From: Streptomyces sp. WM6386
GTDB lineage: Bacteria; Actinomycetota; Actinomycetes; Streptomycetales; Streptomycetaceae
Length of the DNA: 64,000 nt
Reading direction: 5' to 3'
NCBI RefSeq assembly: GCF_000972385.1
Contig: NZ_JXTE01000046.1
Coordinates: 1-64,000 of the forward strand
The notes beneath the pieces are model-generated. The model was not told where the DNA came from and ran no database searches. It saw only the letters and a list, made by a program, of their open reading frames with translations. A program made the translations under genes and the position numbers. Shown here piece after piece: positions 20,173 to 39,825 of this stretch (positions are counted from its first letter, which is position 1; every line of letters starts with the position of its first letter).

Positions 20173-23025
20173 TCAACCGGAGAAGCCGGCATGCGCGAGC
20201 CGCAGCGGGCCGCGCAGCCTGAGGTGGACGTCGTGCACACCGGACGCCGTGAGCGCGGTGCGGAGCGTGACATGGTCGTACGGCCCTGATGTGGGCGTCT
20301 TCGGTGACAGCGTCGCGAGCGCCGGGCCGCCGTCGAGCGAGATCTCCACCGTGCCCTCACCCGCCACGGCCACCGTCACCTCCGTGACCCCCGCCCCGAA
20401 GTCGCAGGAACGGTAGACCAGTTCGGCCGCCACGCCGTTCGCCGGCGTCACCGCGTCGCCCACCGTCTTCGTCCGGTCGACGATCGCGACACCGCTCTGC
20501 TCGTCGAAGTCGGCCCCGTCCAGGCCCCGTTCGACGACGGGGCGTGGTCCGCCCGGCTCACCGTCCAGGAGAACCGTCGTGCGCAGCCGCACGTCCTCGC
20601 TGGAGGCGGCCGCCATCAGGTCGTACGGCCCCGGCTCCAGGCGCCACCGGCCGTGCGCCACGTCCCAGAACTCAAGGGCCGGCAGCGGGACTTCGAAGGA
20701 CAGCTCCGCCTTCTCGCCGGGTGCGAGCGTGACCCTGCGGTGTGCCACCAGCTCACGGCGCGGGCGCGGGACCGAGGGGTTCACGGCGCGGGTGTAGAGC
20801 TGGGCGACCTCGTCGGCCGTCACGTCCCCCGTGTTCGTGACCGTGAAGGAGACGTGCAACGCCCCTTCCTCCGTACGGGACTTGAGATCCCCGTAGGAGA
20901 AGGGCGCGTACGACAGGCCGTGTCCGAAGGGGAACAGCGGGGTGCCCTCGTAGTACAGGTACGTCTGGCGGCCGCCGAGCACGTCGTAGTCCAGCAGGTC
21001 GGGCAGGTCGGCGTCGTCGGCGTACCAGGTCTGCGGGAGGCGGCCCGCGGGGGAGACGTCGCCCGCCAGGACCCGGGCCAGCGCGGTGCCCGCGGCCTGG
21101 CCGCCGTGGGACATCCAGAGCGCGGCCCGCAGCGGACCCGGCTGAAACGTGTACGGGTAGGCGGAGACCAGGGCCAGCACCGTGTTCGGGTTGGCGGCGC
21201 GGGCCGCCCGCAGCAGGCGGTCCTGGTGGGCGGGGAGGGCGAGGGTCCTGCGGTCCTCCGTCTCGCGGCCGTCGATGTGCGGGTCGTTGCCCGCGACCAC
21301 CAGCACGACATCGGCCTCGGCGGCGGCCCTGGCGACCGCGTCCCTTCCGTGCTCGGTGATGATCAGCGTGAAGATTTCGGGCTGATCGTCGAGTTCCGCG
21401 TTTTCATCGGCAACCTTTACTCCGGCGGCGCCGACAGAGACGTGCCGACCCGTGCCGACGTGCCTGAGGAGGTGTCCGTTCTCATGGGGTTCCAGCCGGA
21501 ATGTCTCCTGGACGACCCAGCCTCCGGGCTGGTCGGCGGAGGCCCGCACACAGCCGTCCTCGGCGACCGAGAGATAGCGGCCGTCGGGAGCGCGCAGGGT
21601 CAGGACGCCCTCGCCCCAGTCGACCAGGGCGAGCTCGGTGCCGACCGCGTGGGTGGTGAGCGGCGGGAGGTCCGTGCGGCCCGCGAGCAGTGCCGGGTCG
21701 AGGGCACCCTCGGCGCCGCGCACCGTGTCGTCGGCGTTCGCTTCGGGCACGTGGAGGAAGGCTCCGTCGGACGCCTGCAGCAGGACCCGGTCCACGCCCT
21801 CCGCGAACTCGATCCGGTCGGCGCCGAACCGCTCGTACAGGCCCTCCAGCGGGGTGGAGCGATGGATCAGCGTGCCGCTGTACCAGTCGAGCTTGCACTC
21901 GTCGGCGAGCAGGCCGACCACGGCGAGCCGGGTGTCCGGGGCGAGCGGCAGCACACCGTCGTTGCGCAGCAGGACGACCGACTGCTCGGCCGCCTCCTGC
22001 GCCAGGGCGCGGTGGGCCGGCGTGTCGAAGTCCCTCGTAAGGGCATGCGGGTCGTACTCCGGGTCGAACTCGCCGAGGCGGAAGCGGACCGAGAGCTGGC
22101 GGCGGACCGCCGTGTCGATGTCGGCCTCGGTCAACAGGCCCTGTTCGTACGCCTTCTTGACCCGTCCGGTGATCTGCGTGCTGTCCGTGCCGTGGTCGGT
22201 GAAGCTGTCGACGCCGGCCAGGAGCGAGGCCGCGGTGGCCTCCTCGTGCGTGTCGTAGTAGTGCTCGTGGTCGACCAGGTTGGAGGGCGCGCCCGCGTCC
22301 GAGCAGACCAGCAGATCCTCGTCCGTCCAGGTGCGCAGGTGCTCGCGCAGATACGGACTCACATGGTTCGGGCGGCCGTTGACCAGGTTGTACGCGGGCA
22401 TCACCCCGGCCACCGCGCCCGCCTCGACGGTCTCGCGGAAGGCGCGCAGGTCGTACTCGTGCAGCACGCGAGGGCGGACCGAGCTGGACGAAGTGGCCCG
22501 GTCCGTCTCGTTGTTGTGGGCCAGCCAGTGCTTGAGGACGGGGGCGGTGCGCCAGTACGTCGGATGGTCGCCGCGCAGCCCGCGGGTGTACGCGACGGCG
22601 ATCGCCGAGGTGAGCTTCGGGTCCTCCGAGTAGCCCTCCTCGTTGCGGCCCCACAGGGGGTGGCGAAGGAGGTTCACCGTCGGGGACCAGACGTTGAGGC
22701 CGATGCGGTCGTCGCGGGCCCGCATCGCGCGGACCTCCTTGGAGACGGCCTCGCCGACCCGTCGTACGAGATCGGTGTTCCAGGTCGCGCCCAGGCCCAC
22801 CGCCTGCGGGAACACCGTCGCCGGGCCCATCCAGGCGACCCCGTGCAGGGCCTCCTGGCCGGTGCGGAAGGCGTCGACGCCGAGCCGCTCGACGGCCGGG
22901 GCGAACTGGTGCAGGAACCCGATCTTCTCGTCGAGGGCGAGCCGCGACAGCAGATCGTCGATGCGCTTCGCGAACGGCAGATGCGGATCGCGGAAAGGCG
23001 GCGTGGGCGGCGGCTGTGCGGTCAC
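20173..23025 (-). CDS. GH3 beta-glucosidase with a trefoil-like insertion and CBM6-like tail
   Basis: A 950-residue family 3 glycosidase without a signal peptide, so probably intracellular. The TIM-barrel part ends around the nucleophile D243 (LLVCSDAGAP). At about 455-560 a beta-rich insertion (LTLRAPDGRYLSVAEDG, later GRHVSVG) looks like a fascin-type beta-trefoil. The second GH3 domain resumes at about 560 (VVLVVAGNDPHIDGRE). An Fn3-like domain lies near 725-812, and the last 80 residues resemble CBM6 (CDFGAGVTEVTVAVAG). GTG 23025 was chosen because AAGGGGA precedes it; a longer frame to 23082 would run through the LacI operator. In this locus it would remove backbone glucose from stripped xyloglucan oligosaccharides. 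Confidence 0.87.
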   Translation of the reverse strand: MTAQPPPTPPFRDPHLPFAKRIDDLLSRLALDEKIGFLHQFAPAVERLGVDAFRTGQEALHGVAWMGPATVFPQAVGLGATWNTDLVRRVGEAVSKEVRAMRARDDRIGLNVWSPTVNLLRHPLWGRNEEGYSEDPKLTSAIAVAYTRGLRGDHPTYWRTAPVLKHWLAHNNETDRATSSSSVRPRVLHEYDLRAFRETVEAGAVAGVMPAYNLVNGRPNHVSPYLREHLRTWTDEDLLVCSDAGAPSNLVDHEHYYDTHEEATAASLLAGVDSFTDHGTDSTQITGRVKKAYEQGLLTEADIDTAVRRQLSVRFRLGEFDPEYDPHALTRDFDTPAHRALAQEAAEQSVVLLRNDGVLPLAPDTRLAVVGLLADECKLDWYSGTLIHRSTPLEGLYERFGADRIEFAEGVDRVLLQASDGAFLHVPEANADDTVRGAEGALDPALLAGRTDLPPLTTHAVGTELALVDWGEGVLTLRAPDGRYLSVAEDGCVRASADQPGGWVVQETFRLEPHENGHLLRHVGTGRHVSVGAAGVKVADENAELDDQPEIFTLIITEHGRDAVARAAAEADVVLVVAGNDPHIDGRETEDRRTLALPAHQDRLLRAARAANPNTVLALVSAYPYTFQPGPLRAALWMSHGGQAAGTALARVLAGDVSPAGRLPQTWYADDADLPDLLDYDVLGGRQTYLYYEGTPLFPFGHGLSYAPFSYGDLKSRTEEGALHVSFTVTNTGDVTADEVAQLYTRAVNPSVPRPRRELVAHRRVTLAPGEKAELSFEVPLPALEFWDVAHGRWRLEPGPYDLMAAASSEDVRLRTTVLLDGEPGGPRPVVERGLDGADFDEQSGVAIVDRTKTVGDAVTPANGVAAELVYRSCDFGAGVTEVTVAVAGEGTVEISLDGGPALATLSPKTPTSGPYDHVTLRTALTASGVHDVHLRLRGPLRLAHAGFSG

Positions 23026-23061
23026 GTGGGGTTCCCCTTGGAGTGGAGCGGTCGAGCCCTT

Positions 23062-23075
23062 TCGAAGCGCTTCGA
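23062..23075. promoter_or_regulatory. LacI-type operator O1
   Basis: TCGAAGCGCTTCGA, a perfect 14-bp palindrome upstream of the GH3 gene start. It shares its core with 23222-23235 and both sites before the LacI gene. Confidence 0.85.
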
Positions 23076-23221
23076 TGCTCATTCGACACCAGGGCGGGTG
23101 TCAAGGGAGCGGCGCCATCACTTCAAGCGGTGCATAAGAAAAGGTCGCCTCCCATACCTCGGAGGAATATTGGGAGCGACTCTTGTGCACCCACAGGGCT
23201 TCACTTAACCTCACAGCAACA

Positions 23222-23235
23222 TCGAAGCGCTTCGA
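23222..23235. promoter_or_regulatory. LacI-type operator O2
   Basis: The same palindrome TCGAAGCGCTTCGA, 117 bp before the binding-protein start and exactly 160 bp centre to centre from O1. The 326-bp gap 23026-23351 thus holds divergent promoters with one operator each, and nothing else was recognised in it. Confidence 0.85.
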
Positions 23236-23351: not shown

Positions 23352-25055
23352 ATGACGCCGAACGCCGCTGCCCCCTCCTCTGGTCCTTCCGGTCCCAGCC
23401 GGAGAAGCTTCCTCGCCTCCACCGCGGTGGCCACCGCAGCGGTGGCGGGCGGGGTGCCGCTGCTCTCCGCCTGCGGCGGCTCGGACAGTGGCTCGCGTGA
23501 CGGCACCACGTCGGGCAAGGACGCGAAGAAGATCCTGCCGACCTATGTGGCGAGCAACGTGGTGAAGCCGGACATCCCGTCCAAGAACGGCTCGTCGATG
23601 GGCTTCACCGCCAAGCTCGACGTCGCCACGCTCAAGACGTCGGTGCCCAAGAAGCTCGGCAGCGGCGGCGAGGTCACCATCATGTCGCCGTTCTGGGGCT
23701 CGCCCCCGAAGGGGAACAACCCCTACTACACGTCGATGAACGACCTGATCGGCGTCGACGTCCAGTGGCGGAACCAGGACGGCAACACCTACGACCAGAA
23801 GCTCGGCGCGGTCCTCGCCTCCAGTGACGTCCCGGACGTGGTGGTCATCCCCGGCTGGAACATGATGGGCAAGATACCCAGCGCCATCGCCGGCAAGATG
23901 GCCGACCTCGGCCCGTACCTGTCCGGCGACAAGATCAAGAAATACCCGAACCTCGCGGCCATCCCCAGCGGCGCCTGGCAGCGCTCCATCTTCGGCGGCA
24001 AGCTGATGGGCCTGCCGATGCCCGCCTCGGAGATCCAGAACATCGTCCCCCTGTACCGCCGGGACATCTTCGACAACGAGGGCTACGAAGTCCCGCGGTC
24101 CGCCGACGAGTTCATGGCCCTGTGCAAGGACATCACCAACGCCCGGGCCAAGGTGTGGGCCTGCGGCGACATGAAGTGGACCGCGATGAACACCTTCGGA
24201 GTGTTCAGCGGCGGGGAGAAGCCGCTCTGGTGGGACATGGTCGACGGCAAGCTGGTCAACCGCATCGAAACCCAGGAGTACCTCGAAGCCATCGAGTGGA
24301 CGCGCAAGCTGTTCGCCGCCGGAGTCGTCCACCCCGACTTCAAGCTCGGCAAGAGCCAGGCGGTCGACCCCGCCCCCAAGTTCGCCGCCGGCGAGTTCCT
24401 GATCTGGAACAACAACGTCGTCAACTGGTACGGCCAGCAGGCCTCCCTGGCCACCCAGAACCCCGACGTCAAGGTCTGGGGCATGGACGTCTGGGGCCAC
24501 GACGGCGGTAACCCGACGCTGTACGCCGCGAACCCCGCCGGCATCTTCGCCTTCGTCAGCAAGAAGGCCTCCGAGTCCGTCATCCACGACGTGCTGGCGG
24601 TCGCCAACGTCACCGCGGCGCCGTACGGCACCAAGGAGTGGATGATGACCAACTACGGCGTCGAGGGCACGCACTACACCGTGAAGGACGGCGTGGCCGT
24701 CAAGAACGACAAGGGCAACAACGAAGTCGTCAACGCCTATGTCATGGTGGCCAGTCCCGCCCCGACCACGGCGCACCCGGACCTGCCGGACTACACCAAG
24801 GCCATGGTCGAGTGGGAGCAGCGGATGGGTGCCTTCACCAAGAAGTCGTCCTTCTGGGGCCTTCAGGTCACCGAGCCCTCCCGCTACACCAACCTCGCCA
24901 ACAACTTCGAGCAGCTCGAGGACGACATCATCCGCGGGCACAAGAAGATCAGCGACATGCAGCAGGCCGTGTCCGACTGGAAGGGCCAGGGCGGCGACAA
25001 GCTGCGCGACTGGTACAAGAAGCTGCTCGACGAGAACGGCACGGCGGCGAGCTGA
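23352..25055 (+). CDS. Sugar ABC transporter, oligosaccharide-binding lipoprotein
   Basis: A 567-residue extracellular binding protein. SRRSFL (residues 16-21) is a twin-arginine motif, and the lipobox LLSAC puts the lipid on C41. Its large size and partner permeases fit the LplA/YtcQ-type proteins that capture long oligosaccharides. ATG 23352 has GAAGGG upstream. It heads the plus-strand operon behind operator O2. From the enzymes around it the cargo is probably xyloglucan oligosaccharides; that specificity is inferred. Confidence 0.88.
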   Translation: MTPNAAAPSSGPSGPSRRSFLASTAVATAAVAGGVPLLSACGGSDSGSRDGTTSGKDAKKILPTYVASNVVKPDIPSKNGSSMGFTAKLDVATLKTSVPKKLGSGGEVTIMSPFWGSPPKGNNPYYTSMNDLIGVDVQWRNQDGNTYDQKLGAVLASSDVPDVVVIPGWNMMGKIPSAIAGKMADLGPYLSGDKIKKYPNLAAIPSGAWQRSIFGGKLMGLPMPASEIQNIVPLYRRDIFDNEGYEVPRSADEFMALCKDITNARAKVWACGDMKWTAMNTFGVFSGGEKPLWWDMVDGKLVNRIETQEYLEAIEWTRKLFAAGVVHPDFKLGKSQAVDPAPKFAAGEFLIWNNNVVNWYGQQASLATQNPDVKVWGMDVWGHDGGNPTLYAANPAGIFAFVSKKASESVIHDVLAVANVTAAPYGTKEWMMTNYGVEGTHYTVKDGVAVKNDKGNNEVVNAYVMVASPAPTTAHPDLPDYTKAMVEWEQRMGAFTKKSSFWGLQVTEPSRYTNLANNFEQLEDDIIRGHKKISDMQQAVSDWKGQGGDKLRDWYKKLLDENGTAAS

Positions 25056-25082: not shown

Positions 25083-26117
25083 GTGTCCCACAGCACGGTG
25101 CCTCGGAGCAGCGCCGAGGCCGGCACACCGGTGAAGACCCCGGTGGCGTCCGAGGACGCCACCGGCGCCCGCAAGAAACAGGGCTCGGGCAGGCTGAGCC
25201 TCAAGCTCAGGTTCAGACGCGACCGCACCCTGATCCTCATGACGCTGCCGGCCGTCGTGCTGGTCCTGGTCTTCAACTACCTGCCGATCCTCGGCAATGT
25301 CGTCGCCTTCCAGGACTACGACCCCTACATCAGCGACAACGGCATCGTCTCCATCCTGCACAGCCCCTTCGTGGGCCTGGAGAACTTCCAGCGGATGTTC
25401 GAGGACTCGGCCTTCTGGAACGCGGTCCAGAACACCCTGGTCCTGTTCTTCGTCCAGCTGGTGCTGTTCTTCCCGATCCCGGTCCTGCTGGCGCTGCTCA
25501 TCAACAGCGTGGTCCGGCCCCGGGTCCGAGCCGTCGCGCAGGCGGTCCTCTACCTGCCGCACTTCTTCTCCTGGGTCCTGGTCATCGCCGTCTTCCAGCA
25601 GATGTTCGGCGGCGCGGGCATGCTCTCCCAACTGCTCAGGCAGAACGGGTACGACGGCCTCAACATCATGACCAACCCGGACACCTTCGCCTTCCTGATC
25701 ACCGCGCAGAGCGTGTGGAAGGACGCCGGGTGGGGGATCATCGTCTTCCTCGCCGCGCTGTCCTCGGTCTCCCCGGACCTGTACGAGGCCGCCGCGATGG
25801 ACGGAGCCGGGCGCTGGCGCCGCATGTGGCACGTCACGCTGCCCGCCCTGCGCCCGGTGATCGCCCTCCTCCTCGTGCTGCGCGTCGGTGACGCCCTGAC
25901 CGTCGGGTTCGAACAGATCCTGCTGCAACGTGACGGCGTCGGCACGGGCGCGGGAGAGGTCCTCGACACCTTCGTGTGGTGGAACGGTGTGCGCAACCAG
26001 GACTTCGGCTACGCGGCCGCCGCCGGTCTCGTCAAGGGCGTGGTCAGCATCGGTCTGGTCCTCGCCGCGAACAAAGTGGCCCATCTCATGGGCGAGCAGG
26101 GGGTGTACAAGAAGTGA
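25083..26117 (+). CDS. Sugar ABC transporter permease (LplB-like)
   Basis: A 344-residue permease starting at GTG 25083 behind AAGGAG. A polar head of about 55 residues precedes six membrane segments (first TLPAVVLVLVFNYLPIL). The EAA loop is LYEAAAMDGAGRWRRMWHVT followed by LPALRP. Its stop overlaps the GTG of the next permease by 4 bp. Confidence 0.9.
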   Translation: MSHSTVPRSSAEAGTPVKTPVASEDATGARKKQGSGRLSLKLRFRRDRTLILMTLPAVVLVLVFNYLPILGNVVAFQDYDPYISDNGIVSILHSPFVGLENFQRMFEDSAFWNAVQNTLVLFFVQLVLFFPIPVLLALLINSVVRPRVRAVAQAVLYLPHFFSWVLVIAVFQQMFGGAGMLSQLLRQNGYDGLNIMTNPDTFAFLITAQSVWKDAGWGIIVFLAALSSVSPDLYEAAAMDGAGRWRRMWHVTLPALRPVIALLLVLRVGDALTVGFEQILLQRDGVGTGAGEVLDTFVWWNGVRNQDFGYAAAAGLVKGVVSIGLVLAANKVAHLMGEQGVYKK

Positions 26118-27049
26118 CCACCGTCATCGACAAGCCGGCGAGCAAGCCGCGCCCGTGGGCCGCACCTCCGCGTCCGGCATGGGAGGAAGAGCCCTCGAAG
26201 GCCGGCCTCGCGAGCAAGGGCCTCGTCCTGGCACTCGCCTGCCTGGCGGTCCTCTTCCCGCTGTGGATCGTGGTCGTCACCAGCCTCTCCTCACGGAAGA
26301 CCATCGACGAGGCGGGGGGCCTCGTGATGGTGCCCAAGGACATCACCTTCATCGCCTACCAGGAACTGCTCAGCGGCGGCCAGGTCACCCGTGCCACGCT
26401 CGTCAGCATCTTCGTCACCCTGGTCGGCACGCTGTTCTCGATGACGGTGTCCGTCCTGTGCGCCTATGGCCTGTCCCGCAGCGGATCCCTCGCCCACCGC
26501 GGGATCCTGATGACACTGCTGGCGACCATGTTCTTCAGCGCCGGACTCATCCCCACCTACCTGCTGGTGCAGTCCCTCGGCCTGACGGACAGCTATCTCG
26601 CGCTGATCCTGCCGAGTGCGCTGAGCGTCTTCAACATCCTCGTGCTGCGCGGCTTCTTCATGGGGATCTCGCAGGAACTCATCGACAGCGCGCGCATCGA
26701 CGGCGCCGGGGACTTCCGGGTCCTGTGGCAGATCGTCATGCCGCTGTCGCGGGCGGTCCTCGCGGTGATCACCCTGTTCTACGCCGTCGGGTACTGGAGC
26801 GCCTGGTTCAACGCGTCGCTGTACCTGAACGACCAGGACAAGATGCCGTTGCAGAACGTCATGATCCAGCTGGTGCAGAAGCAGGAGGCACCGGTGGGGC
26901 TCAGCCAGGCCATCAGGACCGGGCAGCTGTCGGGGCTGGCGATTCAGATGGCGGTCATGGTGATGGCGCTGCTGCCGGTGGCTGTGCTGTCGCCCTTCGT
27001 CCAGAAGCACTTCAGGAAGGGCATGCTCACGGGTGCGGTGAAGGGCTGA
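26114..27049 (+). CDS. Sugar ABC transporter permease (YtcP/LplC-like)
   Basis: A 311-residue partner permease with six membrane segments and an EAA loop, LIDSARIDGAGDFRVLWQIV. GTG 26114 overlaps the upstream stop (GTGA). No ATPase gene follows. In Streptomyces such sugar importers commonly use the shared ATPase MsiK encoded elsewhere, and that is the likely arrangement here. Confidence 0.9.
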   Translation: MTTVIDKPASKPRPWAAPPRPAWEEEPSKAGLASKGLVLALACLAVLFPLWIVVVTSLSSRKTIDEAGGLVMVPKDITFIAYQELLSGGQVTRATLVSIFVTLVGTLFSMTVSVLCAYGLSRSGSLAHRGILMTLLATMFFSAGLIPTYLLVQSLGLTDSYLALILPSALSVFNILVLRGFFMGISQELIDSARIDGAGDFRVLWQIVMPLSRAVLAVITLFYAVGYWSAWFNASLYLNDQDKMPLQNVMIQLVQKQEAPVGLSQAIRTGQLSGLAIQMAVMVMALLPVAVLSPFVQKHFRKGMLTGAVKG

Positions 27050-27174: not shown

Positions 27175-29385
27175 ATGCGTACGTTCAACCTGAGCCGTCG
27201 TGCCGTTCTTGCCGGGTCCGCTGGCGCGGCCGCGCTCACCGCTCTTCCCGTCGGGCAGGTGCGGGCGCACGCTGCCGAGGGTGCCGCCTCCTCCTATCGG
27301 TGGCGCAACGTGTTCATCGGGGGCACCGGGTTTGTCACCGGGGTGCTCTTCCATCCCTCCGTCCGTGGGCTCGCCTACGCCCGTACGGACATCGGTGGGG
27401 CCTACAGATGGGACAGCGGGGCCGCCGCCTGGATCCCGCTCACCGACCACCTGGGCTGGGACGACTGGAACCTTCTCGGCGTCGAGGCCATCGCCGTCGA
27501 CCCGGCCCACCCCGACCGGGTCTATCTGGCCCTCGGGACCTATGCGCAGTCCTGGGCGTCCAACGGAGCCGTGCTGCGGTCCGACGACCGTGGTGCCACC
27601 TGGGCCCGAACCGACCTCACCGTGAAGCTCGGGGGCAACGAGGACGGGCGGGGGACCGGCGAGCGGCTGCTCGTCGATCCGCGCGACAGTGACACCCTGT
27701 GGCTGGGGACCCGGCACGACGGGCTGCTCAAGTCCACCGACCGGGGCGCCACTTGGGCCGCCGCCACCGGCTTCCCGGGCACGCCGAGCGCCTCCGGGCA
27801 GGGCGTCACCCTCCTCGTCGCCGTCGGGCGCACCCTCTACGCCGGCTGGGGGGACTCCGACGGGAGCGCCGCCAACCTGTTCCGCACCGCCGACGGGACG
27901 ATTTGGCAGGCCGTGCCCGGACAGCCTTCCGGTGCGGTCGCCAAGGTGCCGATCCGGGCCGCGTACGACCGCTTCACCCGGGAGCTGTACGTGACGTACG
28001 CCAACGCCCCCGGGCCCAACGGGCAGTCCGACGGCAGCGTGCACAAGCTGTGCACCGCCGACGGGAAGTGGACCGACGTGACCCCGGTGAAGCCCGGCGG
28101 GACCACGAGCGACGGTTCCGCCGACAGCTTCGGCTACGGCGGGGTCGCCGTGGACGCCCGACGGCCCGGCACCCTCGTCGTCTCCACCAACAACCGGTGG
28201 GCCGCCGTCGACACCGTGTTCCGGTCCACCGACGGCGGTCGCCACTGGACGTCCCTCAAGGACTCCGCCGTCCTCGACGTGTCGGAGACCCCCTATCTCA
28301 AGTGGGGCGCGGACGCCCCCAAGTTCGGCTGGTGGATCCAGGCACTCGCCCTCGACCCGTACGACTCCCGGCACGTCGTCTACGGCACCGGCGCCACCCT
28401 CTACGGCACCCGGGACCTGAAGCACTGGGCGCCGCAGATCCGGGGCATGGAGGAGACGTCCGTGCGGCAGCTGATCTCGCCCCCGGCCGGGGAGGCGCAT
28501 CTGATCAGCGGGTCCGGGGACATCGGCGTGATGTACCACGAGCGGCTCACCGCCTCGCCCTCGCGCGGCATGGCCACGAACCCCGTGTTCGGGACGGCGA
28601 CGGGACTCGCACAGGCCGCGCGGAAGCCTGCGTACGTCGTCCGCAGCGGGTGGGGCGACCACGGCAACGGTGCCTACTCGAACGACGGCGGACAGACCTG
28701 GGCGCCCTTCGCGGCCCAGCCCTCCCTCGCCAAGGACGCACCGGGGCCGATCGCCACCAACGCCGACGGCAGCGTGCTGCTGTGGGTCTTCGCGCACTGG
28801 GACGGCACGAAGTACCCGGCCCACCGCTCCACGGACGACGGGGCCACCTGGACCGAGATCTCCTCCTTCCCGAAGGGCGCCACGCCGGTCGCCGACCCGG
28901 CCGACCCGACGCTCTTCTACGCGTACGACACCGACACAGGAACGCTACTCGCCAGCACTGACAGTGGCCTCACCTTCACCGAGCGTGCGACGGGGCTGCC
29001 CTCCGGCGACGCCCAGTTCGAGCTCGTCGCCGCGCCCGGGCGCTCCGGCGACCTGTGGCTGAGCGTGAAGGGGAACGGGCTGTACCGGTCCACCGACGGG
29101 GGCGCCACGTTCTCCAAGGTCGCCAGCTGCTGGGCCTCGTACACCCTCGGCTTCGGCAAGGCCGCCGACGGGGCCGACTACCCGGCGATCTACCTGGTCG
29201 GCTCCACCGAGAGCATCACCGCCGTGTACAGGTCGGACGACGAGGCGAAGACCTGGGTGCGGATCAACGACGACCGGCACCAGTGGGGATGGACCGGCGA
29301 GGTCATCACCGGAGACCCGCGGGTGTACGGGCGCGTCTACCTCGCCACCAACGGGCGCGGCATCCAGTACGGGGAGCCGGTCTGA
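27175..29385 (+). CDS. Secreted GH74 xyloglucanase
   Basis: A 736-residue single-module protein. LSRRAVLAG is a Tat signal, with cleavage probably after the AHA region. The mature part is the GH74 double beta-propeller: ARTDIGGAYRWD near its start carries the probable catalytic base, KLGGNEDGRGTGERL is a hallmark, and many TDRGATW/TDGG-type repeats mark propeller blades. No carbohydrate-binding module is attached. Family 74 enzymes are essentially endo-xyloglucanases, so this gene defines the substrate of the locus. Its stop shares one base with the next ATG. Confidence 0.92.
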   Translation: MRTFNLSRRAVLAGSAGAAALTALPVGQVRAHAAEGAASSYRWRNVFIGGTGFVTGVLFHPSVRGLAYARTDIGGAYRWDSGAAAWIPLTDHLGWDDWNLLGVEAIAVDPAHPDRVYLALGTYAQSWASNGAVLRSDDRGATWARTDLTVKLGGNEDGRGTGERLLVDPRDSDTLWLGTRHDGLLKSTDRGATWAAATGFPGTPSASGQGVTLLVAVGRTLYAGWGDSDGSAANLFRTADGTIWQAVPGQPSGAVAKVPIRAAYDRFTRELYVTYANAPGPNGQSDGSVHKLCTADGKWTDVTPVKPGGTTSDGSADSFGYGGVAVDARRPGTLVVSTNNRWAAVDTVFRSTDGGRHWTSLKDSAVLDVSETPYLKWGADAPKFGWWIQALALDPYDSRHVVYGTGATLYGTRDLKHWAPQIRGMEETSVRQLISPPAGEAHLISGSGDIGVMYHERLTASPSRGMATNPVFGTATGLAQAARKPAYVVRSGWGDHGNGAYSNDGGQTWAPFAAQPSLAKDAPGPIATNADGSVLLWVFAHWDGTKYPAHRSTDDGATWTEISSFPKGATPVADPADPTLFYAYDTDTGTLLASTDSGLTFTERATGLPSGDAQFELVAAPGRSGDLWLSVKGNGLYRSTDGGATFSKVASCWASYTLGFGKAADGADYPAIYLVGSTESITAVYRSDDEAKTWVRINDDRHQWGWTGEVITGDPRVYGRVYLATNGRGIQYGEPV

Positions 29386-31352: not shown

Positions 31353-33571
31353 ACGCGAACGAGGACGTGAACGCGGACACCGGCATCGTGCACGGCACCT
31401 GGGAACCTCATCCCGCCACTCGCTGGGAGGACGGCTTCCTGAGTGGCAACGGCCATCACGGCGCTCTTGTGTTCGGCGAGCCGAATGACGAGCGGGTCGT
31501 CGTCACCCATCACACCCTCGTCCGCCCCAACGGCGCCGAACAGGCCCGCCCGCCCGAGCTGGCCGCCGAACTGCCCGCACTCCAGGACCGGTTGCTCGCC
31601 GGAGAGCTCGATGCTGCGGAGAGCTTCACGGACGGGCGGAACCTCCAGTGGGTGCAGCCCTTCCACCCCGCCTTCCAGATACGGCTGCGCCGAGCGAATG
31701 GCGGCGCGCGCAGACACAGACGTTCCATCGACTTCACCACCGGTGTCGTCCACAGCGGGTACGAGGGCTGGGACAGCCGGGTCTTCGTCTCCCGCGCCGA
31801 CGACGTCATCGTCCAGCAGGTCATCGCGACCGAGCTCGACATCTCCCTGGACCACCGGCTCCCCGGCGCCCCGAAGGACCTCGGAGTCGGCCACGGCGCC
31901 GTCCTCACCCCCGACGGCGCCCTGCTCACCCTGCGGGCCCGCTACCCCGGCAGCGACCGCGCCTACACCGGCGTCACCCTGGTCCTCGTCACCGGCGGCA
32001 CCACCACGCTCACACCCCCCGGCCTGCGGATCGCCGGAGCCGGGTCCGTGCTGCTGCTGACCCGCGTACTGCGGCACACCGGCGAGCTCGACGCGCTGGA
32101 GCAGGCGCGCGCCCTGCGCGAACTCGCCGCGCACGAAGGGGACTCGTACGCCCTCCTCCTCGATCGCCACACCGCCCTCCACCGCACCGCCTACGAACGC
32201 GTCACCCTCGACCTCGACGCGGACCCCGACGAACGCGCCCTTCCCGGCTCGGAGTTGCTCCACCGCACCGAGAGCCCCGCCCTCCTGGAACGCCTCTTCG
32301 CCGCCGGCCGCTACCACCTGCTCTCCGCCAGCGGCCTCTTCCCGCCCCGCCTGACCGGCCTGTGGACCGGCGACTGGGACACGGCCTGGTCGGGGGCGTT
32401 CACCAACGACGCCAACGTCAACCTCCAGACCGCGTCCGCGGCCGCCGCCGCCCTGCCCGAAGTCACTGCGGCCCACGCCTCACTGATCCACCGTCAGCTC
32501 CACGACTGGCGGGAGAACGCACGCGCCGTCTTCGGCGCCCGGGGGGTCGTCGCCCCGCCGCACAGCGACGGCGAGTCCGGGCTGACGTACCACTTCAGCC
32601 GCGAATACCCGCTGCACCTGTGGACGGCCGGCGCCGACTGGCTGCTCAAGCCGCTCGTCGACCACGACGAGACCCGCGGCGAGCACGACCCGCGCACCGC
32701 CGCCGCGCTCGCCGAAGTCGCCCTGTTCCACGAGGACTTTCTGACCCGAACCGACACCGACGGGAATCTCGTCCTCGTCCCCTCCTACTCGCCCGAGAAC
32801 CGGCCCGCCAACGCCAGTTGGGGCGCGATCAACGCGGCGATGGACCTCTCGGCCGCCCGGCACGCGCTGCTGACAGCCGCCGCGTACCACCCCGGGACCC
32901 AGGAGGCCGATCGCTGGCTGACCCTCGCCGACCGGCTCCCACCCCACCGGATCAACGACGACGGCGCCCTCGCCGAATGGGCCTGGCCCGGCCTCGACGA
33001 CACCTACGACCACCGCCATCTCAGCCACCTCTACGGCGTCTGGCCGCTCGACGAGATCACCCCCTACGACACCCCGGACCTCGCCGCGGCCGCGTACCGC
33101 GCGCTCGAACTCCGGGGCGCCGAGAACGACTCGGCCCACGGCCACCTCCACCACGCCCTCGTCGCCGCCCGGCTGCGCGACGGCGAACGGGTCGCGCACG
33201 CCCTCGGCCAGGTCCTCAAGGGCGACTTCTTCCACGCCTCCCTGATGAGCGCGCACTACCCGAACCGCGACGTCTACAACGCGGACGCCGCACACACCCT
33301 CCCCGCCGTGCTCGTCGAGATGCTCGTGCAGTCCACGCCGGACCGGCTGGTCCTGCTGCCGGCCCTCCCGGCGGCATACCCGTCAGGCCGGCTCAAAGGG
33401 GTCCGCACCCGGTTCGGGGCGGAACTCGACCTCAGCTGGACCCCGCAAGAAGCGACCGCGGTGCTACGCCCCACCCGTACCCACCGCATCGAACTCCGGA
33501 CTTCCACCGGCGCAGAGCCGCTCGACCTCGTCGCCGGAGAAGACCACGTCCTCCCGCTTGGGACGTGGTGA
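31349..33571 (+). CDS. GH95 alpha-L-fucosidase-like, intracellular
   Basis: A 740-residue protein with the GH95 layout: N-terminal beta-sandwich (WEDGFLSGNGHHGALVFG) and an alpha/alpha barrel with LTGLWTGDW, TNDANVNLQ (matching the region of catalytic asparagines in characterised members) and HRHLSHLYGVWP. No signal peptide is present. ATG 31349 overlaps the GH42 stop (ATGA). Family 95 members mostly cut Fuc-alpha-1,2-Gal, the terminal unit of fucosylated xyloglucan; some act on alpha-L-galactose, which cannot be excluded. Confidence 0.88.
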   Translation: MNANEDVNADTGIVHGTWEPHPATRWEDGFLSGNGHHGALVFGEPNDERVVVTHHTLVRPNGAEQARPPELAAELPALQDRLLAGELDAAESFTDGRNLQWVQPFHPAFQIRLRRANGGARRHRRSIDFTTGVVHSGYEGWDSRVFVSRADDVIVQQVIATELDISLDHRLPGAPKDLGVGHGAVLTPDGALLTLRARYPGSDRAYTGVTLVLVTGGTTTLTPPGLRIAGAGSVLLLTRVLRHTGELDALEQARALRELAAHEGDSYALLLDRHTALHRTAYERVTLDLDADPDERALPGSELLHRTESPALLERLFAAGRYHLLSASGLFPPRLTGLWTGDWDTAWSGAFTNDANVNLQTASAAAAALPEVTAAHASLIHRQLHDWRENARAVFGARGVVAPPHSDGESGLTYHFSREYPLHLWTAGADWLLKPLVDHDETRGEHDPRTAAALAEVALFHEDFLTRTDTDGNLVLVPSYSPENRPANASWGAINAAMDLSAARHALLTAAAYHPGTQEADRWLTLADRLPPHRINDDGALAEWAWPGLDDTYDHRHLSHLYGVWPLDEITPYDTPDLAAAAYRALELRGAENDSAHGHLHHALVAARLRDGERVAHALGQVLKGDFFHASLMSAHYPNRDVYNADAAHTLPAVLVEMLVQSTPDRLVLLPALPAAYPSGRLKGVRTRFGAELDLSWTPQEATAVLRPTRTHRIELRTSTGAEPLDLVAGEDHVLPLGTW

Positions 33572-33610: not shown

Positions 33611-34327
33611 ATGGCAAAGAGCACACTGCGCAAGATCACCATGGCGATTCTGGCCCCGGCGATGGCCCTCGGCGCCACCGTCGGCCTCGCCTCCGCCCCC
33701 GCCTCCGCCGCCGTCTGGAACTCCTGCGACCAGTGGGGCAACACCAGCCTGAACGGCTACACGCTCTACAACAACATCTGGGGCTCCGGCGCCGGCAGCC
33801 AGTGCATATGGGCCAACTCCGGCACCAACTGGGGCGTCTGGGCCAACCACCCCAACACCGGCGGCATCAAGTCCTACCCGAACTCCAAGAAGGTGGTCAA
33901 CAAGACCATCGCCTCCCTGGGCACCCTCACCAGCAACTACAACGTCACGGTCCCGTCGTCCGGCGCGTACAACACGTCGTACGACATCTGGGACACGGAC
34001 TACGACTACGAGATCATGCTCTGGGTCAACTACAACGGGGCCGTCGGCCCGCTCGGCACCTCGCAGGGCAACGTGACCCTCGGCGGCCACACCTGGACCG
34101 TCTACAAGGGCAGCAACGGCGCCAACGAGGTCTTCTCGTTCCTGCGCACCTCGGACTCCAGCTCCGGCACCGTGAACATCAAGCCGATCCTCACCTGGAT
34201 CTCGGGCACCAAGGGCTGGATGTCGAGCAGCGAGACCATCGGCGACGTCCAGTTCGGCTACGAGATCACCAGCTCCTCCGGCGGTCTGGACTTCGTCACC
34301 AACAACCTGACAGTCAGCAGTAGTTGA
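33611..34327 (+). CDS. Secreted GH12 endoglucanase/xyloglucanase 1
   Basis: A 238-residue protein. ATG 33611 follows GGAAAGGG. Residues 1-33 form a Sec signal peptide ending ASAPASA. The mature part is a compact GH12 jelly roll: nucleophile E134 (DYEIMLWV) and acid/base E218 (FGYEITSS). There is no binding module. It follows GH95 after 39 bp in the same direction and would act outside the cell next to GH74. Confidence 0.9.
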   Translation: MAKSTLRKITMAILAPAMALGATVGLASAPASAAVWNSCDQWGNTSLNGYTLYNNIWGSGAGSQCIWANSGTNWGVWANHPNTGGIKSYPNSKKVVNKTIASLGTLTSNYNVTVPSSGAYNTSYDIWDTDYDYEIMLWVNYNGAVGPLGTSQGNVTLGGHTWTVYKGSNGANEVFSFLRTSDSSSGTVNIKPILTWISGTKGWMSSSETIGDVQFGYEITSSSGGLDFVTNNLTVSSS

Positions 34328-34355
34328 CCGGGCGGGGTGGGGTTACACGGACCCC

Positions 34356-34944
34356 ATGCGCAACTCCACCCCCCTCACCGTCACCCTGATCGCCGCCGCG
34401 CTGCTCGCCTCATCGGGCACCGCGGCGGCGACACCCCAGCCCTCGCAACTGCGACCCGTGGCCGAGCTCGCCGCCTGGGGGTACCTCCCACGCCCTTAAG
34501 GCAGTGGGGGAGCCTCGCCACCGCCGACCTTGTCGCGGCCGCGAAATGGGGCACCGACAGCCCCATCGACGACCCCGCCCGTGAGCAGCAGGTCCTCGAC
34601 ACCGTCGCCGCACAGGCCCAGCGGATCGGCGCCGACCCTGACGAGATCCGGCGGATCTTCCGCGACCAGATCGAGGCCAACAAGCTGGTCCAGCACGGCC
34701 TTTACCGGCGCTGGACCGGGCATCCCGACCAGGCCCCGACGACCAAGCCGGACCTGAACGTCGTACGGCAGCAGATCAACCGCGTCAACACCGACCTCGT
34801 CGACGCCCTCGCCGGCTCGACCGCGCCGCGCCCACCTGCGAACCCGAACTCGCCCTGACCGTCGTCGAGATCCACCACGAGCGGCCCCCCGACCTCCTGC
34901 ACACGGGTGCGCTGGTCCGCTCCCTCGCCTCCGTCTGCCGCTGA
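34356..34944 (+). pseudogene. Secreted chorismate mutase (AroQ-gamma type), broken
   Basis: The start ATG 34356 gives a signal peptide and reads to PVAELAA, then hits a stop inside a 35-bp repeat (34476-34510). Removing exactly those 35 bp restores the frame into SLATADLVAAAKWGTDSPID and DQIEANKLVQHGLYRRW, the core of secreted chorismate mutases such as the mycobacterial *MtCM. A second shift of one base near 34833 is needed to reach PTCEPELALTVV and the end LASVCR; the two cysteines match the disulfide pair of that family. Two lesions argue for a true pseudogene, not a single sequencing error. Confidence 0.8.
34476..34510. repeat. Dispersed palindromic repeat, copy 2 (35 bp), inside chorismate mutase
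   Basis: It begins TGGGGGTACCTCCCACG and ends GCAGTGGGGG. It nearly equals 16636-16669. It sits between the codons for Ala and Ser of the interrupted gene and adds 35 bp, shifting the frame by two. Confidence 0.85.
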
Positions 34945-34989: not shown

Positions 34990-34997
34990 CGGCACGC

Positions 34998-37046
34998 CTA
35001 CTCCGCTACGGGCAGGCGCGCCCCGTCCCGCAGGAACAGCGGGATGCGGTCCAGGGGGGCGTCGACCGTCACGGTCGTGCCGCCCTCGTACGTCTCACCG
35101 GTCCACGCGTCCGTCCAGGTCGCGCCCGCCGGGAGATAGGTGGTGCGGGCCGTCGCGCCCGCGGTGAGCACCGGGGCCACCAGCAGGTCGCCGCCGAAGA
35201 GATAGGCGTCGTCGACGGACCAGGTCGCATGGTCCTCGGGGAACTCCAGGAACAGCGGCCGCATGGGCGGCAGGCCTTCCTCATGGGCCTCCCGCATGAC
35301 CTGGAGGACATACGGCTTCAGGCGCTCGCGCAGCCGCAGATACCGCTCCAGGATGGCGCCGGCCTCCTCGCCGTACGACCACACCTCGTTCGGACCGCCG
35401 GTCATCTCCGGGCCCAGCGGCATGCCCGGGTCACGGAAGCCGTGCAGGCGCATCAGCGGCGACAGGGCGCCGAACTGGAACCAGCGGACCATGACCTCGC
35501 GGTACGCCTCGTCGTCCGGGTCGCCGCCGTGGAAGCCGCCGATGTCGGTGTTCCACCAGGGGATGCCGGAGAGCGAGGTGTTGAGGCCGGCCGCGATCTG
35601 GCGGCGCAGGGTCGGGAAGTCGGTGCCGATGTCCCCGGACCACAGGGCGGCGCCGTAGCGCTGGCTGCCCGCCCACGCCGAGCGGTTGAGGGTGATGACC
35701 TCCTCGCCCTCGGCCGTGAGGCCCTCGTGGAAGGTACGGGCGTTCTCCGCCGGGTAGCTGTTGCCGACCTCCAGGCCCGGGCCCGCCCAGTAGCGCAGGT
35801 TCTCCGGGAAGCCCGGCTTCAGCTCCGGCTCGCAGGCGTCCAGCCAGAAGGCCGTGATGCCGTACGGGGTCAGGTAGTTGTCGCGGACGCGCGACCACAT
35901 GAACTCGCGGGCCTCGGGGTTCGTGGCGTCGTAGAACGCGACCTGGACGGTGGAGGCGACCTCCTTGTCCGGCCAGTCGGCGTGCGCCATCGGGCCGTAC
36001 TGGGTGCCGATGAAGTAGCCGCGCTGCTCCATGAGCTGGTGGTTCTCGCTCAACGGGGACACCGACGGCCAGACGGAGACGACGAGTTTGATTCCGAGCT
36101 CCTCCAGCTCCCGCACCATGGCGCCCGGGTCGGGCCACTCGTTCAGGTCGAACTTCCAGTCGCCCAGGTGCGTCCAGTGGAAGAAGTCGCAGACGATCGC
36201 GGAGATGGGCAGGCCGCGGCGCTTGTACTCCCGTGCCACGGCGAGGAGTTCGTCCTGGGTGCGGTAGCGCAGCTTGCACTGCCAGAAGCCCGCCGCCCAC
36301 TCCGGCATCATCGGGGTGCGGCCGGTCGCCGCGGAGTAGCGGCGCTGACCGTCGGCCGGGGCGCCCGCGGTGATCCAGTAGTCGATCTGACGGGCCGAGT
36401 CGGCGACCCAGCGGGTGCCGTTGTGCGCGAGCTCGACCCGGCCGATCGCCGGGTTGTTCCACAGCAGGGTGTAGCCGCGGCTGGAGCTCAGCACCGGGAT
36501 GCCGACCTCGGCGTTGCGCTGCACCAGGTCGAGGACCAGGCCCTTCTGGTCGAGCCGGCCGTGCTGATGCTGGCCGAGGCCGTACAGCTTCTCGTCGTCG
36601 TAGGCGGCGAAGCGCTGTTCCAGACGGTGGTGGCCGTTGCCGACGGCGGTGTAGAGGCGGGAGCCGGGCCACCAGAAGTGGGCGCGGGCCTCGGCGAGGA
36701 GCTCGGCGGAGTCCTCGGTGCGAAGGAAGCGGATCAGTCCCTCGGCGTCGACCTCGACGGTGAGAGTGCCCACGGTCAACTGGCCCCGGCCGTCCTCGAT
36801 CTTGACCGTGGACGAGGTGGCGGGCGGGCTCTCCAGCAACGCACCCGGCAGTCCCTCGAGGATCGGGCCACCGAGCCTCGCCCGGACCCGGACCGCGTCG
36901 GGGCCCCAGGGCTCGATACGGAGCGTCTCCTGGCGGCCGCTCCACTCCAGGCCGCCGTCCCGCTCACGGAACGTGCCGATGGTGGGAGACGACTGGGCGA
37001 GGCTGACAACGCCCTGCTGGGGCTGATTTTCGGCAGGCTGAGTCAC
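34998..37046 (-). CDS. GH31 alpha-xylosidase (probable), intracellular
   Basis: A 682-residue family 31 enzyme with no signal peptide. The nucleophile is D403 in FWLDACEPEL and the acid/base is D472 in LWSGDIGTDF. An N-terminal beta-sandwich precedes the barrel. GTG 37046 has AGGAGC upstream. The FWLDACEPE form occurs in bacterial alpha-xylosidases and alpha-glucosidases; the xyloglucan setting favours removal of alpha-1,6-xylose from oligosaccharide ends. It is co-directional with and 88 bp downstream of the LacI gene, so the two may be co-transcribed. Confidence 0.87.
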   Translation of the reverse strand: MTQPAENQPQQGVVSLAQSSPTIGTFRERDGGLEWSGRQETLRIEPWGPDAVRVRARLGGPILEGLPGALLESPPATSSTVKIEDGRGQLTVGTLTVEVDAEGLIRFLRTEDSAELLAEARAHFWWPGSRLYTAVGNGHHRLEQRFAAYDDEKLYGLGQHQHGRLDQKGLVLDLVQRNAEVGIPVLSSSRGYTLLWNNPAIGRVELAHNGTRWVADSARQIDYWITAGAPADGQRRYSAATGRTPMMPEWAAGFWQCKLRYRTQDELLAVAREYKRRGLPISAIVCDFFHWTHLGDWKFDLNEWPDPGAMVRELEELGIKLVVSVWPSVSPLSENHQLMEQRGYFIGTQYGPMAHADWPDKEVASTVQVAFYDATNPEAREFMWSRVRDNYLTPYGITAFWLDACEPELKPGFPENLRYWAGPGLEVGNSYPAENARTFHEGLTAEGEEVITLNRSAWAGSQRYGAALWSGDIGTDFPTLRRQIAAGLNTSLSGIPWWNTDIGGFHGGDPDDEAYREVMVRWFQFGALSPLMRLHGFRDPGMPLGPEMTGGPNEVWSYGEEAGAILERYLRLRERLKPYVLQVMREAHEEGLPPMRPLFLEFPEDHATWSVDDAYLFGGDLLVAPVLTAGATARTTYLPAGATWTDAWTGETYEGGTTVTVDAPLDRIPLFLRDGARLPVAE

Positions 37047-37134
37047 GAGGGGTGCTCCTGGAGGCGAGTGGAGACAGGTGGTGCCCCAGCGGGGCTGCTC
37101 GGGCTGCTCGGTGCGGAAGGAACAGAGAGGTTCG

Positions 37135-38148
37135 TCAGAGCGCCGTCGGCGCGGGTCCCGTGCTCGTGCGGACCGTCAACTCGGGTGCGATGAGCACGAC
37201 TTCGTCCTTGCCGCGGCCTTCGAGCTTGGCCACCAGACGCTCCACGGCGTGCCGGCCCATCTCCTGCGCGGGGATGGCGACCGAGGTGAGCCGCACGGAG
37301 GCCTGGGTGGCGACCTGGTCGGGGCAGACCGCGACGACCGACACGTCCTCGGGCACGGCGCGGCCCTGCTGGCGCAGCAGGGCGAGCAGCGGCTCGACGG
37401 CCGACTCGTTCTGCACGACGAAGCCCGTGGTGGCGGCGCGCTCGTCGAGGATGCGGGCGAGGGTCACGGCCATCGCGTCGTATCCGCCCTCGCACGGCCG
37501 GTGCAGCAGTCGTACGCCCAACTCCTGGGCCCGTGACCGGAGTCCGTCCAGGGTGCGCTCGGCGAAGCCGGTGTGCCGTTCATAGACCGCCGGGGCCTCG
37601 CCGATGACAGCGATGTCGCGGTGGCCGAGCTTCGCGAGGTGCTCGACGCACAGTGCGCCGGTGGCCCGGAAGTCGAGGTCGACGCAGGTCAGTCCGGAGA
37701 CGTCGGCGGGCAGACCGATGAGCACGGACGGCTGGTCGGTGCCGCGCAGCAACGGCAGCCGCTCGTCGTCGAGTTCGACGTCCATCAGGATCATCGCGTC
37801 GGCGAGCCCGCTGCCGGTGACGCGGCGCACGGCGTCGGGGCCCTCCTCGCCGGTGAGCAACAGGACGTCGTAGCCGTGGAGACGGGCCGTGGTGGCCACC
37901 GCGATGGCGATCTCCATCATCACCGGCACGTACATGTCGGTGCGCAACGGGACCATGAGCGCGATGATGTTCGACCTGTTGCTGGCCAGGGCGCGGGCGC
38001 CCGCGTTCGGGTGGTAGCCCAACTCGCGGATGCTCTGCTCCACCCGCTCCCGGGTGGCCCCGGAGATGGACCGCTTGCCGCTGAGGACATAGCTCACCGT
38101 GCTCGCCGAGACTCCGGCGTGCTGGGCGACCTCGGCGAGGGTGACCAT
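37135..38148 (-). CDS. LacI-family repressor of the xyloglucan locus
   Basis: A 337-residue regulator. The HTH is at residues about 3-24 (TLAEVAQHAGVSASTVSYVL), followed by the hinge helix (NAGARALASN) and a periplasmic-binding-protein-type sensor domain. ATG 38148 follows GGAGAG; the upstream open frame is not coding. One operator lies 16 bp and another 105 bp upstream, so it probably represses itself. The same core occurs in front of the GH3 and transporter genes. The inducer is presumably a xyloglucan breakdown product. Confidence 0.9.
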   Translation of the reverse strand: MVTLAEVAQHAGVSASTVSYVLSGKRSISGATRERVEQSIRELGYHPNAGARALASNRSNIIALMVPLRTDMYVPVMMEIAIAVATTARLHGYDVLLLTGEEGPDAVRRVTGSGLADAMILMDVELDDERLPLLRGTDQPSVLIGLPADVSGLTCVDLDFRATGALCVEHLAKLGHRDIAVIGEAPAVYERHTGFAERTLDGLRSRAQELGVRLLHRPCEGGYDAMAVTLARILDERAATTGFVVQNESAVEPLLALLRQQGRAVPEDVSVVAVCPDQVATQASVRLTSVAIPAQEMGRHAVERLVAKLEGRGKDEVVLIAPELTVRTSTGPAPTAL

Positions 38149-38163
38149 CCAGCTCTCCAAGCT

Positions 38164-38181
38164 TTGTGAAGCGCTTCGACA
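38164..38181. promoter_or_regulatory. LacI-type operator O3
   Basis: TTGTGAAGCGCTTCGACA holds the perfect 10-bp core GAAGCGCTTC (38168-38177) with one flank deviating. It is just upstream of the LacI start. Confidence 0.75.
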
Positions 38182-38252
38182 GTGCGCAGTGCGAATAAGG
38201 GCGGGTGAGGGTGGTTCGACAGTAGCTCCACCGGGGGTGGGTGTCCATAGGC

Positions 38253-38270
38253 TGTCGAAGCGCTTCGACA
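38253..38270. promoter_or_regulatory. LacI-type operator O4 (best site)
   Basis: TGTCGAAGCGCTTCGACA is a perfect 18-bp palindrome, the longest of the four sites, 89 bp centre to centre from O3. Confidence 0.88.
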
Positions 38271-38335
38271 TCGAGTTGGTACGGGCTCCCCTTCGGGCCT
38301 CCCGGCGGCTCTTCCGGGGTGTGGGGTTCCTCCCT

Positions 38336-38957: not shown

Positions 38958-39015
38958 CGCCCCGGCGCCCACTGAAGGGACGTAATCGATCACCCCCTTC
39001 GTGAGGACCCGCCCC

Positions 39016-39825
39016 ATGCAGCACCGCCGCCCCCGCTTCTCCAAGAAGGCGAAGACTCTCGTCTCCGGCACGGTCGCGCTTGCCGCGGCCGTCGGTGTGA
39101 CCGTCGCGCAGGCGGACGAGCCGAGCAAGAAGTGCACGGACTTCGACACGATCACGCTCGGCAAGTACTACGTGAACAACAACGTCTGGAACCGGGAGAA
39201 GGCCACCGGTACGCAGTGCGTCTGGGACAACTCCCGGTCGGGATCGACCATTTCGTGGGGTACGAACTACAGCCTGGCCAACAGCGGCAACGGCAAGGAC
39301 TACGACGTGAAGTCCTACGCGTCCAGCGTCCTCGGCTGGCACTGGGGCTGGAAGGTCGACAAGTCCTCCACCGGTCTGCCGATCCGCGTCGGCGACCGCA
39401 AACCGGTGAAGACCAGCTGGGAGTTCACGGTCAGCTCTAACCCCGGCGTCATGAACGTCGCCTACGACCTGTGGCTGCACAACAAGAACACCGCCGACTG
39501 GCAGGACCAGCCCACCGACGAGATCATGATCTGGCTCAACCGGCAGGGCGGCGCCGGACCCCTCGGCAGCAAGTACGGATCCGTCAGCCTCGGCGGCGCC
39601 ATGTGGGACATCTACCAGGGCGACATCGGCTGGAAGGTCTACTCCTTCGTCCGCCGCACCAACACCACCAAGGCCTCCCTCGACCTCGACGACTTCACCC
39701 AGGCCCTCGTCCGGCGCAAGCTCCTCAGCAACGACAAGTACGTCTCCGGCATCGAGTCCGGCACCGAGGTATTCAAGGGCACCGGACGCCTTGACACCAA
39801 GGCGTACTCCGTCAACATCGGCTGA
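39016..39825 (+). CDS. Secreted GH12 endoglucanase/xyloglucanase 2
   Basis: A 269-residue GH12 protein, only distantly like the first. ATG 39016 has GAGGA at 8-bp spacing; GTG 39001 is an alternative. A Sec signal runs to about residue 33 (VGVTVAQA). The nucleophile is E169 (DEIMIWL) and the acid/base is E251 (SGTEVFKGTGRL, the counterpart of the FGTEPF motif). No LacI operator core was found directly upstream, so control may differ from the rest of the locus. Confidence 0.88.
   Translation: MQHRRPRFSKKAKTLVSGTVALAAAVGVTVAQADEPSKKCTDFDTITLGKYYVNNNVWNREKATGTQCVWDNSRSGSTISWGTNYSLANSGNGKDYDVKSYASSVLGWHWGWKVDKSSTGLPIRVGDRKPVKTSWEFTVSSNPGVMNVAYDLWLHNKNTADWQDQPTDEIMIWLNRQGGAGPLGSKYGSVSLGGAMWDIYQGDIGWKVYSFVRRTNTTKASLDLDDFTQALVRRKLLSNDKYVSGIESGTEVFKGTGRLDTKAYSVNIG

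Follow-up and report, generated by a model that had tools for sequence, protein, structure and literature searches.

The stretch of DNA analyzed here (the 64-kb window) comprises bases 1–64000 of contig C401 of the Streptomyces sp. WM6386 genome (9.2 Mb, 856 contigs). The locus under study, at positions 20173–39825, very probably serves the uptake and catabolism of xyloglucan oligosaccharides, as the principal part of a LacI regulon spread over two loci. Xyloglucan ranks among the chief hemicelluloses of primary cell walls, and Streptomyces contribute heavily to decomposition in soil. Xyloglucan uptake and catabolism by this locus is well supported; control through the operator sequence TCGAAGCGCTTCGA is suggested by its association with these genes in comparative genomics, with the repressor presumed and its binding predicted.

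An earlier sequence-only reading of this DNA listed glycoside hydrolase (GH) genes of families GH74, GH12 (two), GH42, GH95, GH31, and GH3, an oligosaccharide importer, and a LacI regulator, and all are found within the locus (Table 1). Domains were called with Pfam, with scores of 72 and 110 bits for the two GH12 genes and a SBP_bac_8 match of 29 bits (cut-off 27) for the lipoprotein, a solute-binding protein (SBP). For GH74, Pfam returned BNR/sortilin repeats only; by its PDB matches, named xyloglucanase or Gly74A, this BNR-repeat protein is a GH74 enzyme. Signal peptides had been claimed for the endo-enzymes and the lipoprotein only, and hydropathy, the one criterion used, agrees: a hydrophobic stretch behind basic residues opens GH74 (RR), GH12a, GH12b, and the SBP (RR, …LLSAC), and no such N-terminus was seen on GH3, GH42, GH95, or GH31. 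The RR pairs of GH74 and the SBP are presumably Tat signals, and LLSAC presumably a lipobox. By Pfam family and N-terminus, GH31, GH42, and GH3 appear to be of cytosolic type. The GH3 start is more likely the GTG at 23025 than the ATG at 23082, operator 1 lying between the two; the LacI start, near 38148, is a choice among those listed.

The shared operators of the sequence-only reading are also borne out. There are four exact copies of TCGAAGCGCTTCGA in the whole genome, three in the locus and one at C379:27264 on another contig, and none of the reversed string. For comparison, relatives were taken as the best 80 of 277 loci fetched with the window GH95 as bait (79 from Streptomyces, one from an “Actinobacteria bacterium”). 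The GH3/SBP intergenic region has exactly two exact copies in all 72 relatives where it is readable, and there is a copy upstream of lacI in 68 of the 69 with lacI and 250 bases before it; only 5 of 217 copies in 1.67 Mb of relatives’ sequence lie elsewhere. Degenerate copies before lacI, like that in the window, also occur in L062, L014, L143, and L146 (two mismatches) and L147 (one mismatch; fetched stretches are numbered L, genomes G, and contigs C). In a tool-drawn survey of 101 Streptomyces genomes, TCGAAGCGCTTCGA is found 213 times and its reversed string 20 times. At least two copies are present in all 44 genomes with a window-type SBP and in 2 of the 57 without; 15 of these 57 have at least one. 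CebR-type control was considered and ruled out: the CebR box, TGGGAGCGCTCCCA, is another sequence, with no copies in the window or in L003. Among the matches listed for GAAGCGCTTC in print, two Streptomyces papers contain, at the matching passages, no description of this operator.

A stack of 73 intergenic regions (72 relatives and the window), on which promoter hexamers were read by eye, has promoter-like hexamers beside both operators. The −10 box of GH3 runs straight into operator 1, and operator 2 follows closely on the putative SBP-operon promoter, a position suited to a repressor. The spacing between the two ranges from 155 to 206 in the 72 relatives, with modes at 160 and 182 and clusters at 159–160, 180–183, and 194. 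This clustering might reflect looping, with a weak periodicity test: phasing gives p = 0.005 against uniform spacings, over a range chosen after data inspection. Helical phasing was not accepted as proof of looping, the best period being 11.65 bp, with R only 0.45 at 10.5 bp.

Table 1. Genes, operators, and putative promoters of the locus (window coordinates)
Feature	Position	Strand	Basis and remarks
GH3 + Fn3-like + CBM6; candidate intracellular exo-beta-glycosidase	20173..23025	-	Pfam 159/123 bits; no signal-like N-terminus
Operator 1, exact TCGAAGCGCTTCGA, at GH3 promoter	23062..23075		String search
Putative GH3 promoter: TTGACA 23099–23104, 17-nt spacer, TGAGCA 23076–23081	23076..23104	-	By eye, conserved columns
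Putative SBP-operon promoter: TTGTGC 23183–23188, 16-nt spacer, TTAACC 23205–23210	23183..23210	+	By eye, conserved columns
Operator 2, exact TCGAAGCGCTTCGA, just downstream of SBP-operon promoter	23222..23235		String search; intergenic stack
Solute-binding lipoprotein, AlgQ/FusA-like (Cluster G) fold	23352..25055	+	Pfam SBP_bac_8; model and fold comparison
ABC permease 1	25083..26117	+	Pfam BPD_transp_1
ABC permease 2	26114..27049	+	Pfam BPD_transp_1, scanned from upstream start 25976
GH74 endo-xyloglucanase, probably secreted	27175..29385	+	PDB matches; N-terminus
GH42 beta-galactosidase, no signal peptide seen	29385..31352	+	Pfam 495 bits; PDB; N-terminus
GH95, probable alpha-L-fucosidase, no signal peptide seen	31349..33571	+	Pfam 205 bits; PDB; alignment; fold
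GH12a endo-glucanase/xyloglucanase, probably secreted	33611..34327 (reading frame opens 33596)	+	Pfam; PDB; N-terminus
Gamma-class (secreted-type) chorismate mutase, broken frame	34337..34858	+	Profile match over NCBI TIGR01806 cut-off
GH31 alpha-xylosidase, MeXyl31 type, no signal peptide seen	34998..37046	-	Pfam 271 bits; PDB 5zn6, E 2.7e-197
LacI-family regulator, presumed repressor of regulon	37135..38148	-	Pfam 66 bits
Degenerate operator copy, two mismatches, between operator 3 and lacI	38166..38179		String search
Operator 3, exact TCGAAGCGCTTCGA, before lacI	38255..38268		String search; 68/69 relatives
GH12b endo-glucanase/xyloglucanase, probably secreted, accessory	39001..39825	+	Pfam; PDB 2jem

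Gene presence was counted on 61 full-length relatives. GH3, one permease, GH42, and the bait GH95 are in all 61; the SBP, the other permease, and GH12a in 60; GH74 in 56, LacI in 54, and GH31 in 51. A random gathering of unrelated glycosidases is ruled out by synteny across the 80 loci. Strains with the main locus include S. canus DSM 40017 (L019) and S. coeruleorubidus ATCC 13740 (L063). GH12b (16 of 61) and the chorismate mutase (15 of 61) are present in so few that they are taken as accessories. The chorismate mutase open reading frame (ORF), located between GH12a and GH31 and longer in several relatives, is probably a passenger outside the system. At L120:8371–13332 and L137:5123–8779, operator copies near GH74 matches and short GH95- or GH3-like matches resemble decayed copies of the locus.

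The fourth operator, on C379, precedes genes for an SBP, two permeases, a GH31, a LacI, and a secreted GH3-CBM6; one permease and the LacI were read from tblastn and translation, the LacI being confirmed by Pfam. This LacI is identical to that of the window at 182 of 337 aligned positions (54%), including 45 of the first 60. The C379 GH31 is YicI-like: a full-length relative of PDB 1xsi/1xsj (E 1e-292), it scores 1248 bits where the cut-off for the YicI equivalog NF007940 is 606. Of nine stretches printed, this genome’s among them, all have the operator 5–6 nt behind TTGAC and a TACCTT-like box; a two-mismatch copy lies 23 bp from the operator in 5 of the 6 second-locus stretches scanned. In the survey, 39 of the 44 genomes that have the SBP also carry a YicI-type GH31, against 14 of the 57 that lack it (p = 9e-11; G088, at 40% identity, excluded). 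By coordinate tables, the SBP and YicI-type genes are at most 10 kb apart on one contig in 14 of the 39. The YicI-type gene stands directly behind GH3, with no MeXyl31-type match in 20 kb, in 5 of 10 stretches, themselves chosen partly because it lay within 10 kb of the SBP.

A wider survey covered 384 genomes of the class; at a threshold of E 1e-80, 46 have the window-type SBP, 29 of them outside the genus Streptomyces. Ten other-family SBP stretches were fetched. Exact operators are found in L200, L202, L204, L205, and L206, a one-mismatch operator in L201, and two-mismatch copies in L199 and L203. In L202 and L206, from another actinobacterial family, the second importer and its GH3 adjoin the first importer; the operators there precede GH3-like genes, and the beginning of the second importer falls beyond the stretch or right at its border. 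With both importers side by side, these two stretches are taken as the best evidence that both loci belong to a single system.

The two loci might even provide separate routes of import governed by the same operator, each pool being sensed by one of the two LacI paralogues, in several actinobacterial families; this extended proposal is tentative and less likely than not. Large oligosaccharides would enter through the window importer, and isoprimeverose, freed outside by the secreted C379 GH3-CBM6 or inside by the window GH3, would pass through the second importer to the YicI-type alpha-xylosidase.

The opposite possibility is that the window locus, with a shared ATPase, is self-contained, and C379 an unrelated system for disaccharides, its operator match being due to chance or crosstalk. 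The window locus alone does supply all the glycosidase families that fucogalactoxyloglucan oligosaccharides call for, including its own GH31, and 5 of the 44 SBP genomes lack a YicI-type match. The C379 operator adjoins promoter-like boxes, however, in a position kept in the relatives printed; the YicI-type GH31 co-occurs with the SBP and in several genomes is part of the main locus; and the second importer adjoins the first in another family, which together make such independence unlikely. The phrase “complete self-contained” in the sequence-only reading is not supported, because a candidate ATPase is encoded on another contig and TCGAAGCGCTTCGA precedes the C379 importer, YicI-type GH31, LacI, and GH3.

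The rest of what that reading said of the ATPase is supported. The importer has a Ruminiclostridium-type layout, with an SBP and two permeases, and Pfam found no ATPase gene within the locus; one in the left flank, at 4244–5407, accompanies another transporter. The shared MsiK-type ATPase it proposed is supported by an orphan MsiK-like gene at C90:78075–79154, over the profile cut-off, with no permease or SBP among five neighbors scanned. It is a candidate to energize the window importer, a partnership that is predicted. The window SBP, with an AlgQ/FusA-like fold in its model, is predicted to bind xyloglucan oligosaccharides.

The GH95 is a probable alpha-L-fucosidase, and its action on fucose plausible: the fold, the general acid Glu (in SPEN), and the activating Asp are kept by fold comparison and alignment. 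Its nearest relative by both sequence and fold is the Xanthomonas enzyme, which is fucose-specific (PMC8245568). Removal of L-galactose or another sugar instead of L-fucose, in what would still be a xyloglucan locus, would be helped by the existence of a GH95 L-galactosidase (4ufc; PMC4491172) and by unusual active-site residues in the window enzyme. It is made improbable by the closeness of the Xanthomonas enzyme, even if 4ufc comes within 1 Z unit of it, and by L145, a GH95-less relative with a GH29 alpha-L-fucosidase carrying a ricin-type lectin domain beside GH3 (L145:13168–15057). L145 is one of eight GH95-less stretches fetched, whose other ORFs were partly scanned; its GH29 possibly replaces GH95. 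A single PF05025 match, at C679, was not taken as proof of fucose catabolism, RbsD and FucU being undistinguished.

The window GH31 resembles MeXyl31-type alpha-xylosidases, with four alpha-xylosidases (5zn6, 7kmp, 2xvg, 5jou) among its best five PDB matches, and at 237 bits is below the 606-bit YicI cut-off. At L014:13082–14269 and L147:10076–11263, a sulfotransferase-family gene adjoins the MeXyl31-type GH31. The GH3 may be a beta-glucosidase or an isoprimeverose-releasing exo-enzyme; action on glucose is plausible. A second GH74, 41–46% identical, adjoins GH48-CBM2 at L004 (C13:107000–126000), with a CebR-type box at L004:14808, the one occurrence of TGGGAGCGCTCCCA beside this GH48/GH74 locus; the two GH74 genes may therefore answer to different regulators. 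A beta-glucan or cello-oligosaccharide system, with GH12 and GH3 acting on plain glucans and xyloglucan incidental, would suit the breadth of both families and a GH12a whose nearest PDB relatives are NopAA and endoglucanases, but is very improbable, GH74, the alpha-xylosidase, GH42, and GH95 having no expected role there and the operator differing from the CebR box.

In the preferred reading, a two-locus xyloglucan regulon, secreted GH74 and GH12 enzymes, judging by family, would cut xyloglucan to oligosaccharides. These would be captured by the lipoprotein and imported by the two permeases, powered by an ATPase encoded elsewhere, a plan shown in R. cellulolyticum. Inside, GH95 would take the terminal deoxy-sugar, most likely L-fucose, and GH42 would then remove galactose. 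GH31 would follow on the alpha-xylose at the non-reducing end and GH3 on exposed glucose, in this presumed order. LacI bound to TCGAAGCGCTTCGA would silence the two divergent promoters and lacI itself until an imported sugar releases it, and the C379 locus would probably handle small xyloglucan fragments such as isoprimeverose. Xyloglucan as substrate, cutting outside, import, and dismantling inside were all in the sequence-only reading, and are supported by sequence, conservation, and the R. cellulolyticum precedent (PMC4780118).

Several observations weigh against this reading. Enzyme activities, expression, and operator binding are predictions. The sample is of close relatives only, the 80 loci being GH95-baited and the best of 277. 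GH74 is missing in 5 and GH31 in 10 of the 61 full-length relatives, and L122 and L143, from beyond this sample, lack GH74, GH95, and GH31, so the gene set is modular. Among the other-family stretches, L207 and L208 have neither an operator nor matches to the enzymes, and L203 has only GH3 with its two-mismatch copy. Two genomes hold the operator without the SBP (G032, two copies; G081, three), and a function for every exact copy is ruled out, some being inside unrelated coding sequence (L107, L113, L129, and others). GH3 reaches no curated equivalog cut-off, and its nearest solved relatives tie between a beta-glucosidase (8j9f) and a beta-xylosidase (7zb3). In GH95, the first Asn of the AfcA N421/N423 pair, a pair that activates the water, is aligned with Asp, and a His replaces the pocket tryptophan (the Trp being assigned here). 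The model of this protein has low confidence (mean pLDDT 63, with values under 50 near the motif), and its residue-level reading was dropped. A shifted alignment keeping both Asn was ruled out, because orthologues L140 and L142 have Asn in the unshifted column. Among 108 GH95 locus sequences, this position is Asp in 87, Asn in 20, and unread in one, with eight changes on the tree.

Both flanks are unremarkable. The left flank of the locus has aminotransferase, PucR, and aldehyde dehydrogenase genes, and the right flank acyl-CoA dehydrogenase, DXP reductoisomerase, M50 peptidase, GcpE, and class II tRNA synthetase genes (all by Pfam), as well as a gene of the APH(6)/hydroxyurea-type kinase family (50364–51269).

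The proposed regulon is directly testable through its defined operator, its pair of LacI paralogues, and its two putative importers, and it gives annotators a marker for transporters with unassigned substrates. A GH95 clade whose catalytic Asn toggles with Asp is a natural test of this family’s unusual base mechanism. If true, the two-route proposal would describe a dual-importer xyloglucan regulon across several actinobacterial families. A search that included few subscription papers found no published description of the TCGAAGCGCTTCGA operator or of a Streptomyces xyloglucan importer, regulator, or regulon.

Among known systems, the R. cellulolyticum cluster (SBP2458/TMD2456–2457, Xyl31A, Glu3A, Gal42A; PMC4780118) has the same endo-cleavage outside, import of whole oligosaccharides by an SBP and two permeases with no ATPase gene nearby, and cytosolic GH42, GH31, and GH3; biochemically, GH42 acts first there, and GH31 and GH3 then alternate. 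It differs in its two-component XygS/XygR, where the locus studied here has a LacI with a defined operator and none of its 12 ORFs scanned with Pfam is a two-component gene, and in its cellulosomal endo-enzymes, where GH74 and GH12 here have their own signal-like N-termini; a GH95 within the operon and a second importer locus are further differences here. Anaerocellum bescii Athe_2052–2057 (preprint, PMC12710961) likewise has GH74 outside, a large-pocket SBP of AlgQ/FusA class, and GH31 in the locus, with side chains left to GH42 and a putative fucosidase, but its GH42, GH74, and fucosidase genes are elsewhere, and the word LacI is absent from the text of the paper. The Xanthomonas XyGUL (PMC8245568) also groups GH74, GH31, and GH95, the latter two among the closest solved relatives of the window enzymes, but has TonB-dependent outer-membrane transport, GH35 rather than GH42, and a CE20 acetyl esterase; TonB-dependent transport, GH35, and CE20 were not seen among the ORFs scanned in the window locus. 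The Streptomyces CebR cellulose regulon (PMC4898821) shares a LacI-family regulator and a 14-bp palindrome, with a different operator (TGGGAGCGCTCCCA against TCGAAGCGCTTCGA) and gene set. Likeness to YicI (PDB 1xsi/1xsj) belongs to the C379 GH31, that of the window being of MeXyl31 type. The overall plan is a known one: the locus would work like those of R. cellulolyticum and A. bescii, and differs from them in its regulator, in having GH95 within the operon, and in the presence of a second importer.

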